A DNA stretch of 64,000 nucleotides, from NCBI RefSeq assembly GCF_014645015.1, contig NZ_BMLC01000002.1:62001-126000 (forward strand). The letters are read 5' to 3'. The first letter of the stretch is position 1. Each line of letters begins with the position of its first letter. Origin of the DNA: Salinibacterium xinjiangense (GTDB taxonomy: Bacteria; Actinomycetota; Actinomycetes; Actinomycetales; Microbacteriaceae). Of the stretch, positions 1 to 1,882 are shown piece by piece. Position numbers and translations under genes: made by a program. The notes under the pieces are model-generated. The model made no database searches. It was not told the origin of the DNA and saw nothing but the letters and a program-made list of their open reading frames with translations.

Positions 1-1034
1 ATGGTGGCCTGCGCCCGCAGACGATCATAGAGCTGGCGGATGCCGTCGGCATGGCCGTGCCGGTAGCCGACGCCGCGGGGCTCGCGACGTGGTTCGCCGA
101 CCAGGCCGATTCCGGATCGCTCGTGGAATACCTGAAGACGTTCGACATCACCACCGGCGTGATGCAGACAAAGGAGGGCCTCACCAGGGTCGCTCGCGAA
201 TTCGTGCAGGATCTCGGCGCGGATGGGGTCGTCTATGGCGAGATCCGGTGGGCTCCGGAGCAGCACCTCGCACGTGGGCTCAGTCTCGACGAGGTGGTGG
301 AGGCCGTGCAGGAGGGCCTCGACGCGGGAGCAGATGACGTCGCTGGCTCCGGCGGGAGCATCCGGGTCGGCCAGCTGATCAGCGCTATGCGCCACGCTGA
401 CCGCGGGCTCGAGATCGCCGAACTCGCCGTTCGCCACCGCGACAACGGTGTCGTCGGCTTCGACATCGCCGGCGCTGAGGCAGGCTTTCCAGCGGGAAAG
501 ATGCGCGAGGCCTTCGACTTCCTCGCCCGAAACTACCTCCCCGCCACGATCCACGCCGGCGAGGCCGATGGGCTGGAGTCGATTCGTGGCGCCCTGTTCG
601 ATGGTCGCGCGCTCAGGCTCGGCCACGGCGTGCGGCTTGCGGAGGACATCACCACCTCGAGCGAGGACGACGAGAACACTTACGTAACGCTCGGGCCGGT
701 CGCCCAGTGGGTCAAGGATCGCGAGATTGCGCTGGAACTCAGCCCCAGCTCGAACCTGCAAACCGGCGCCATCGAGCAATGGGGGGACGAGCTCGTCGAC
801 CACCCATTCGACCTGCTGTACCAGCTTGGATTCCGCGTCACGGTCAACGCCGACAACCGGCTGATGAGCGCCACGTCGCTCACGCGCGAACTCTTCCTCC
901 TGTCTGAGACGTTCGGCTACGACCTCTCGGACCTTGCGGTGTTCCAGTTGAATGCCGCAGCATCGTTGTTCCTGCCGTTAGAGGAGCGAGAGGAGCTCGC
1001 AGACATCATCACCGCGGGTTTCGACGCGGCCTGA
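1..1034 (+). CDS. add: Adenosine deaminase, 5' end outside window
   Basis: Deaminates adenosine and deoxyadenosine to inosine and deoxyinosine in the cytoplasm. The frame is open from base 3 and begins GGLRPQTIIELA, the part just after the family's N-terminal HxHxDG metal motif, so only about 20 residues lie upstream of the window. An ATG at 51 is internal and is not the start. Visible family motifs are the HAGE segment (about base 560), LGHGVRL, ELSPSSNLQTG and the NADNRLMS segment near the C-terminus that carries the metal-binding Asp. The stop codon overlaps the next gene's ATG by one base (TGATG), so it is co-translated with a PTS EIIA. Its product inosine is the substrate of the nearby purine nucleoside phosphorylase. 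Confidence 0.93.
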   Translation, partial: GGLRPQTIIELADAVGMAVPVADAAGLATWFADQADSGSLVEYLKTFDITTGVMQTKEGLTRVAREFVQDLGADGVVYGEIRWAPEQHLARGLSLDEVVEAVQEGLDAGADDVAGSGGSIRVGQLISAMRHADRGLEIAELAVRHRDNGVVGFDIAGAEAGFPAGKMREAFDFLARNYLPATIHAGEADGLESIRGALFDGRALRLGHGVRLAEDITTSSEDDENTYVTLGPVAQWVKDREIALELSPSSNLQTGAIEQWGDELVDHPFDLLYQLGFRVTVNADNRLMSATSLTRELFLLSETFGYDLSDLAVFQLNAAASLFLPLEEREELADIITAGFDAA

Positions 1035-1483
1035 TGACCCTTCCCCCGCTTCCTGAGAGTGCTATCGTCCTCGCGGCGGAGGCAGCGGACTGGCGTGCCG
1101 CTGTCACGCTGGCGGGGGAGGCGCTGACCCGTTCTGGCTCGGCCGAACCCGGATACTCACGCGAGATGATCCGGATGATCGAGCAGCACGGTCCCTATGT
1201 CGTCATCGCACCGGGGCTCGCCCTCGCGCACGCGAGGCCAGGGCCCGAGGTCATTGCCGATGGGCTGTCGATCGTGACGCTCGCGAGCCCAGTCAACTTC
1301 GGGCACCCGCACAATGATCCGGTCAGTGTGGTGCTCGGGTTGGCGATCGCCTCCGCCGACACCCATCTCGCGGCTGTCGCCGCCGTGGCGAACGTGTTCA
1401 ACGACTCGTCCGCCATCGCCGACCTGGCAGCAGCAGTTTCGGCACTCGAGGTGCAGAAGATCATGGGCGCGGTGGAGCTATGA
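1034..1483 (+). CDS. PTS EIIA component (mannitol/fructose/ascorbate-type)
   Basis: A 149-residue phosphocarrier of the PTS EIIA type 2 fold. It would take phosphate from HPr on a histidine and pass it to an EIIB. His66 in the LAHARPG segment is the expected phosphorylated residue, and length and layout match stand-alone UlaC/SgaA-like proteins. It starts one base inside the add stop codon and its TGA overlaps the ATG of a 22-codon ORF made by the tandem repeat at 1471-1613. No EIIC gene is visible; it probably lies upstream of the window. Substrate is unknown; the neighbours suggest nucleosides rather than ascorbate (inference). Confidence 0.85.
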   Translation: MTLPPLPESAIVLAAEAADWRAAVTLAGEALTRSGSAEPGYSREMIRMIEQHGPYVVIAPGLALAHARPGPEVIADGLSIVTLASPVNFGHPHNDPVSVVLGLAIASADTHLAAVAAVANVFNDSSAIADLAAAVSALEVQKIMGAVEL

Positions 1484-1548
1484 GAATCGCGCCAGCGATT
1501 CGGCGACCCCAGCGCCGACTGAGCCTGCGAGGGAGGGTGGAGCTATGA
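1480..1548 (+). CDS. 22-codon mini-ORF created by repeat unit 1
   Basis: Opens with an ATGA overlap on the EIIA stop and encodes a 22-residue basic peptide (starts MRIAPAIRRPQ, ends RGRVEL; seven Arg, one acidic residue). Its stop again overlaps an ATG, that of the next mini-ORF. The gagggaggg Shine-Dalgarno-like stretch is inside the ORF and serves the following start. No known family. More likely a translational bridge by re-initiation than a functional peptide, but expression is plausible because of the overlap architecture. Confidence 0.45.
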   Translation: MRIAPAIRRPQRRLSLRGRVEL

Positions 1549-1613
1549 GAATCGCGCCAGCGATTCGGCGACCCCAGCGCCGACTGAGCCTGCGAGGGAG
1601 GGTGGAGCTATGA
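1545..1613 (+). CDS. 22-codon mini-ORF created by repeat unit 2
   Basis: Identical in sequence to the mini-ORF starting at 1480. It is preceded by the purine-rich gagggaggg about seven bases before its ATG. Its TGA overlaps the ATG of the EIIB gene at 1610. Together the two mini-ORFs place two rounds of termination and re-initiation between EIIA and EIIB. Function unknown. Confidence 0.45.
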   Translation: MRIAPAIRRPQRRLSLRGRVEL

Positions 1614-1882
1614 AGATCGTGACCATCTGCGGCGCCGGGATCGGCAGCTCGGGCATCCTGAAGGTCAACGCCGAGCGCGTGCTGGCAAGACTCGACATCG
1701 AGGCCATCGTGATCGCCGCCGATGTCGCTTCGGTTCAGGATGTCGCGGCCGACGCCCAGGTCATCCTGACGTCTGCCGAGTTCGTGGAGGCGATCGGCGC
1801 GACGTTCGCCGACGTCATCGTCATCGAAAACTATTTCGACACCGCAGAGTTGAGCGCCAAGCTGGAGGCGGCGCTGGGCTGA
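1610..1882 (+). CDS. PTS EIIB component (ascorbate/lactose-type)
   Basis: A 90-residue small EIIB protein. It begins MKIVTICGAGIGSSG, with Cys7 followed by a glycine/serine-rich phosphate loop, the hallmark of UlaB/SgaB-like EIIB domains that carry phosphocysteine. It would take phosphate from the EIIA encoded at 1034 and deliver it to a membrane EIIC not present here. A strong gagggaggg site inside the tandem repeat precedes the ATG. It is the last gene of the add-EIIA-EIIB group, and the next gene is convergent 14 bases away. Confidence 0.85.
   Translation: MKIVTICGAGIGSSGILKVNAERVLARLDIEAIVIAADVASVQDVAADAQVILTSAEFVEAIGATFADVIVIENYFDTAELSAKLEAALG

Follow-up and report, generated by a model that had tools for sequence, protein, structure and literature searches.

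In the window, meaning the whole 64-kb stretch of DNA that was analysed, the genes for a PTS EIIA and a PTS EIIB are joined by a tandem array that carries a chain of small open reading frames (Table 1). The two 65-bp units of this array are 100% identical, exactly as the first-pass annotation had described them, and a 13-nt partial copy follows directly; TRF placed the array at the top of the tandem arrays in the window with a score of 286, and three other rows scored 51–54. The earlier description of each unit as a complete 22-codon ORF, opened and closed by ATGA, was also confirmed, with the order EIIA (stop at 1483), mini-ORF 1, mini-ORF 2 and EIIB (start at 1610) passing through three junctions that are each a 4-nt ATGA overlap. 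A unit must be 3n+2 long to chain to itself in this manner, so 65 fits, and it is the combination of this length with a spacer that reads ATGA which makes each unit a closed ORF.

The same annotation held that every unit brings a small hairpin, which is present, and a strong ribosome-binding site. The latter agrees with the calculated Shine-Dalgarno duplexes, which reach -12.9 kcal/mol at the EIIB and mini-ORF 2 starts of the window, as against a median of -7.4 (range -13.4 to -2.4) at the EIIB starts of 24 relatives, 23 of which are weaker than the EIIB start of the window. Its choice of 1471 as the unit start needs a correction: the 5′ boundary shared by the wider repeat family (see below) lies 4 nt further upstream, at the GCGC of 1467. 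An adenosine deaminase gene lies immediately upstream of EIIA, and farther upstream are ORFs that we take, from their sequence, to be nucleoside-hydrolase-like and thymidine-phosphorylase-like; these neighbours suggest that the cluster probably functions in nucleoside use. No terminator or promoter was found at positions 1300–1950.

Table 1. Features of the EIIA/EIIB array and its surroundings (window coordinates)
Feature	Position	Strand	Remarks
PTS EIIA (PTS_EIIA_2)	1034..1483	+	last codons GTG GAG CTA TGA fall in the 5′ end of the repeat
Repeat copy 1	1467..1535	+	family boundary GCGC at 1467; tandem unit 1471–1535
Mini-ORF 1	1480..1548	+	22 codons; ATGA overlap at each end
Hairpin B of copy 1	1484..1501	+	GAATCGC-GCCA-GCGATTC; stem B covaries family-wide
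Conserved 3′ core of copy 1, GCGACCCCAGCGCC	1503..1516	+	
Stem C region of copy 1	1515..1537	+	3′ arm gives GGGAGGG 1531–1537, Shine-Dalgarno for mini-ORF 2
Repeat copy 2, perfect duplicate	1536..1600	+	
Mini-ORF 2	1545..1613	+	22 codons; ATGA overlap at each end; in the ORF list, tail of a longer frame 1314–1613
GGGAGGG, Shine-Dalgarno for EIIB	1596..1602	+	duplex -12.9 kcal/mol
Partial third copy with EIIB start	1601..1613	+	13 nt
PTS EIIB (PTS_IIB)	1610..1882	+	

The EIIA/EIIB junction in related genomes

Among 27 genomes of the genus, 23 are free of the element at this junction, which is occupied in two, the genome of the window (two units) and G007 (one unit); two further genomes, G002 (L016) and G009 (L009), keep EIIA, and EIIB was not seen in the stretch fetched. 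In every element-free relative that retains both genes (23/23), EIIA and EIIB overlap directly by -4 nt at an RTGA, which upholds the proposal that the two genes were ancestrally joined by a stop/start overlap and, along with the dispersed copies found elsewhere, the proposal that a repeat was inserted here and later duplicated. In G007, the EIIA frame continues through the single element, which gives EIIA the tail RGGAMEDRASDPATPAPSEPASEDLV, and its stop overlaps the EIIB start at a GTGA; the two genomes thus appear to preserve the coupling of EIIB by a 4-nt overlap through different frames.

A tree of the two genes, with low support at 12 of its 22 inner forks, groups the window with the element-free G023 (100/98) and G007 with the element-free G025 (93/84). 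Since each occupied junction is sister to an empty one, either two insertions or several losses are implied. The 13 bases shared by the unit starts and EIIB had been read as the old EIIA/EIIB joint, which is not certain: ggtggagct belongs to the repeat itself as its conserved 5′ end, but the element-free EIIA end of G016 already has gcgcggtgga, which makes the exact left junction of the insertion uncertain.

A dispersed repeat family of the Microbacteriaceae

The unit of the array belongs to a dispersed repeat of ~70–80 bp in the Microbacteriaceae, a family that is apparently undescribed so far, no description having been found in the literature searched, with subscription papers mostly outside its scope. 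When the EIIA-EIIB region was used as a query, many matches to the unit alone, with a common architecture, were obtained at scattered, unrelated positions in further genomes of the genus. The copies have a core in common, GCGCG[G/C]TGGAGCT...GCGAC[C/G]CCAGCGCC, around two hairpins, and the left boundary is sharp at GCGCG in 140 copies. They were collected with a pattern that requires TGGAGCT and GCGAC[C/G]CCAGCGCC, so the invariance of these parts is by construction, and copies found by BLAST carry rare changes in them. The pattern gave 147 matches after exclusion of those less than 30 bases from the start or less than 130 from the end of a locus; seven of the 147 lack CG[GC] before TGGAGCT, namely six apparent chance matches in coding sequence and the second unit of the window. 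The set was brought to 135 copies by removing L097, L108 and L112, which resemble coding sequence, and by merging near-duplicates.

The two conserved strands, GCGCG[G/C]TGGAGCT and GCGAC[C/G]CCAGCGCC, form stem A, whose two variable bases, left free by the pattern, are linked (C/G 71, G/C 66 and G/G 3 among 140 copies); the folds suggest two alternative pairing registers of one stem. Stems B and C are free in sequence and show Watson-Crick covariation, which was 0.384 compared with 0.125 after shuffling in an alignment not fitted to structure (0 of 500 shuffles as high), and 0.531 compared with 0.135 on the 114 distinct rows of a fitted alignment. Stem B alone occurs as 125 distinct segments in the 135 copies, and no fewer than 118 form hairpins of 7–11 pairs with at most one mismatch; the fixed columns of this stem in the fitted alignment are Watson-Crick in 759 of 788 cells, with 6 G.T and 1 A.C. 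This scarcity of wobble pairs suggests that the paired form matters as DNA, or that one arm has been copied from the other. The copy in the window folds no more stably than its shuffles, with z at -0.82 when one unit is folded as DNA and at +0.23 when the pair is folded as RNA, and two other copies fold unusually well as DNA (z -5.5 and -3.6).

A mini-ORF was considered as a trait of the whole family and rejected. After GGAGCT the spacer reads ATGA in only 10 of the 135 copies and ATG in 32, a count that related copies inflate and that compares with 14.2 expected from column frequencies; between co-directional genes, ATG follows in 5 of 21.

A covariance model built from 40 copies, with matches accepted at E up to 0.01, found the repeat in 26 of the 27 genomes of the genus at 1–20 matches each; 24 genomes have a match of at least 50 bits, and G011 and G014 have a single weak one each (about 40 bits). 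The four matches in the genome of the window are the two array units and two decayed copies. The notion that the core of the unit should recur was therefore borne out in part, there being no other near-identical copy in this genome, whereas the family is widespread in others. Under filters stricter than those used in the genus, 93 of the 299 genomes of the family have the repeat, and these represent 37 of 78 genera; per-genome copy counts from this search are lower bounds, and 12 genomes picked for high counts have 16–36 matches each. A pattern scan of a genome collection yielded at least 118 stretches, and most of the 80 titled among the matches listed are from Microbacteriaceae, the genera there including Agrococcus, Leifsonia, Salinibacterium, Pseudolysinimonas, Glaciihabitans, Curtobacterium and others. 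In a class-wide sample of 393 genomes, the four positives were three Microbacteriaceae and one weak match outside the family that is without the core. Two full-looking copies also lie in metagenome bins, L102 in one assigned to Acidobacteria and L103 in one assigned to Parvibaculum, which may reflect wrong binning or transfer outside the family. With one 73-base copy as the query and E 1e-5 as the threshold, no match to a plasmid or phage was obtained.

Insertion contexts and flanking repeats

The repeat sits between genes in every orientation, with balanced classes and no orientation rule: in 126 contexts, the upstream and downstream genes stand as -E+ in 29, +E- in 23, +E+ in 21 and -E- in 19, and 34 copies lie inside ORFs, these counts coming from a crude gene caller, with tandem neighbours counted apart and three coding-like chance matches in the inside class. 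Among 44 upstream genes in the sense direction, 17 resemble EIIA in that they terminate no deeper than 17 bases into the element, at offsets -1 and -15 to -17. At a second gene pair, aligned for 15 genomes, the element is present in G007 (L221) and G025 (L222) and absent from 12. The 3′ part alone is left of the repeat at this pair in G022 (L228), a view of its decay, and the insertion at this boundary goes with an apparently relocated start codon (L221, L222, L228).

Within a gene for an Lhr-type helicase, the element lies antisense and in frame, as two 69-bp units of 23 codons each in G016 and as one in G023. The tandem period suits its context in both cases, being 69 (3n) inside the protein and 65 (3n+2) in the ATGA chain. 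Across 15 genomes, the linker of this helicase holds the repeat in four and GGTTGAGTAGC-type repeats instead in three. This linker (L034, L036, L248–L273) is an insertion hot spot, occupied, depending on the species, by this repeat, by GGTTGAGTAGC-type palindromes or, in the genome of the window, by a GTCGTC-rich tract.

Dropping tandem and short-flank copies left 107 solitary copies, of which L083, L170 and L130, with an element or remnant upstream, were removed by eye to leave 104. Exact direct repeats of at least 12 bp between the flanks occur at 13 of the 107, compared with 0.43 by shuffling, and a mismatch-tolerant test, anchored no more than 3 nt from the 5′ end, picked out 14 of the same 107, where shuffling gives 0.05. 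After removal of the three, 11 of 104 solitary copies have flanking repeats, whereas 1,282 sites drawn at random from these loci gave 7 (Fisher p 5e-9), the remnant filter having been used on the solitary copies and not on the random sites. These 11 copies combine the features of target-primed insertion: a putative target duplication that is long and variable (19–43 bp), one flush end (0–3 nt from the 5′ end of the element) and a variable 3′ tail (2–32 nt); three of them (L135, L091 and L102) lie in locally repetitive DNA. When the best repeat was searched for freely, its left copy lay 0–4 nt from the element in 11 of 12 cases, the other being L195 (34 points), which at 11 nt away was scored as a miss; L288, outside the count, has a perfect 37-bp flanking repeat with no gap and a 10-nt tail. 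The window array and the G007 copy have no long flanking repeats (scores 7 and 5).

Duplications of this kind, long, variable and flush at one end, do not match DDE transposons or REP transposition; they look more like the products of target-primed insertion or template switching. A short target duplication of fixed length was considered and rejected, as no common length emerged among 46 copies with a perfect stem C (an abutting 3-bp match in 2 and a 4-bp match in 2, with 0.59 and 0.28 expected by shuffling). The REP transposase domain (Y1_Tnp) was found in none of the 27 genomes of the genus, the control being positive in 5 of 14, and an origin through REP/RAYT was rejected on this count. Reverse transcriptase (RVT_1) is encoded in 6 of the 27 genomes and not in that of the window, whereas the repeat is in 26, a distribution that does not support mobility by this enzyme, though the enzyme may still play a part. 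These two enzyme searches covered the genus, and most flanking-repeat cases come from other genera; G010, which has the most copies in the genus (20) and is the source of the flanking-repeat case L050, has a reverse transcriptase.

Origin and possible function of the array

The array is probably a doubled, non-autonomous, structured interspersed repeat of the Microbacteriaceae that was inserted at the EIIA 3′ end in a coupling layout like that of the mycobacterial MIRU. Comparison of the junctions supports an order of events in which the repeat would have entered where relatives show the direct RTGA overlap and would then have been duplicated. Ribosomes that leave EIIA may stop and start again at each following frame in turn, first the two mini-ORFs and then EIIB, the strong Shine-Dalgarno of stem C may also recruit ribosomes at mini-ORF 2 and EIIB, and EIIB would stay coupled despite an insertion of ~130 bp. 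We infer such a MIRU-like translational relay from the arrangement of the frames. The chain of ORFs could also be luck, because a 3n+2 unit with an open frame is not rare, 23 of 30 frames being open across five copies. The repeat itself probably spreads as a DNA structure, in a process that would leave direct repeats, long and variable, which reach its 5′ end or stop just short of it.

Several other origins were weighed against this insertion and doubling of a mobile repeat. Functional RNAs are typically recognized by a conserved core and covarying stems, and many loops read TTTCG or ATTTCT, so the family might be a structured RNA (a cis-regulator or small RNA) that is under selection and disperses only secondarily. 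However, such an RNA is unlikely given the lack of an orientation rule towards genes (126 contexts, 34 of them inside ORFs), the occurrence of copies in frame inside a protein gene, the rarity of G.T in stem B (6 of 788 cells, hardly commoner than mismatches) and the lack of an Rfam match for the window stretch and seven other loci. Plain local tandem duplication of the EIIA/EIIB junction DNA, with no mobile repeat, would explain why the EIIB start (ATGAAGATCG) resembles the unit start (ATGAGAATCG) and draws on the gcgcggtgga of the empty G016 junction, but it is already contradicted by the recurrence of the same ~70-bp sequence at numerous unrelated positions across genomes of the genus and the family, and is highly improbable.

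The first-pass annotation also proposed that slippage changes the number of units and thereby sets the EIIA:EIIB ratio. Perfect units favour slippage, and the unit number differs among species, from 1 to 4 at another locus shared by nine species and as 0, 1 and 2 at EIIA/EIIB; yet this variation is seen between species only and the single copy of G007 works by a different frame, which makes a device of this kind quite unlikely.

Comparison with known systems places the doubled repeat near several classes of small elements. A review describes MIRU as short, apparently mobile repeats that insert at start codons, carry an internal ORF coupled at -4 nt and probably do little harm to expression (PMC12548453). 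The window array is like them in that an ORF within the unit is coupled to its neighbours by -4 nt stop/start overlaps, a likeness of layout and not one of compared sequences; however, the mini-ORF is present in a minority of the Microbacteriaceae copies, the family occurs in all orientations and inside genes and not generally at start codons, and a pair of covarying hairpins accompanies its conserved core. Because it is not confined to such sites, the repeat is not classed as a MIRU.

REPs are reported usually to exceed 100 copies (PMC2817692). The repeat is, like REPs and BIMEs with their RAYT (TnpA-REP), short, dispersed, palindromic and sometimes tandem, but it reaches up to 36 copies in the genomes counted and no Y1 transposase accompanies it in the 27 genomes of the genus; the earlier suggestion of a REP-like insertion is therefore apt for a dispersed palindromic repeat, but not for a REP in the RAYT sense. 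Rickettsia palindromic elements are described as palindromic repeats inserted in frame in protein genes (PMC10969869), to which the copies in the Lhr-type helicases of G016 and G023 and in the G007 EIIA correspond by description; those of the Microbacteriaceae are about half the size, occupy many other contexts and are found in different bacteria. MITEs of DDE transposons are likewise small and non-autonomous, but the repeat has no fixed-length short target duplication and its paired arms are internal hairpins, not terminal inverted repeats.

It is possible, though on balance doubtful, that the family represents a previously unrecognized class among the short interspersed elements of bacteria: a folding DNA of ~75 bases with a conserved core. 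Such an element would spread without a REP transposase, duplicate 19–43 bp of its target directly at the 5′ end or beside it, leave a 3′ tail that varies, and persist in tightly packed genomes because it does no harm in coding sequence, where most frames are open, or at ATGA overlaps. The array suggests that the MIRU-like solution, in which a closed mini-ORF in a stop/start overlap allows downstream translation to survive, also arises outside mycobacteria, and here in a family of repeats that mostly lack a mini-ORF. With dozens of copies, a clear structure and several members with long flanking repeats, the family is a tractable one for testing how short repeats move without REP transposases.

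Some copies lie in larger repeated surroundings. In G010 (L201, L202 and L203), identical copies are nested in GGTTGAGTA-type repeats as inverted pairs 1.7–2.3 kb apart, one of which brackets a gene for a sodium/proton antiporter bearing a thioredoxin-like domain; a role of the repeat as transposon ends was considered for these pairs and rejected, as the copies lie within the GGTTGAGTA-type repeats. Three copies in G149 (L208–L210) share an identical context of at least 2.1 kb on two contigs, perhaps aboard a larger mobile element, and four identical copies in G310 (L204–L207) lie no more than 18 bases from the end of a contig; the assembly thus seems to be broken by larger, recent duplications that include the repeat. 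The GGTGGAGCT of the repeat resembles what we take to be the complement of a tRNA-Ala 3′ end, and at L137 (140–289) a copy meets the 5′ end of a tRNA-Ala gene with a 2-base overlap.
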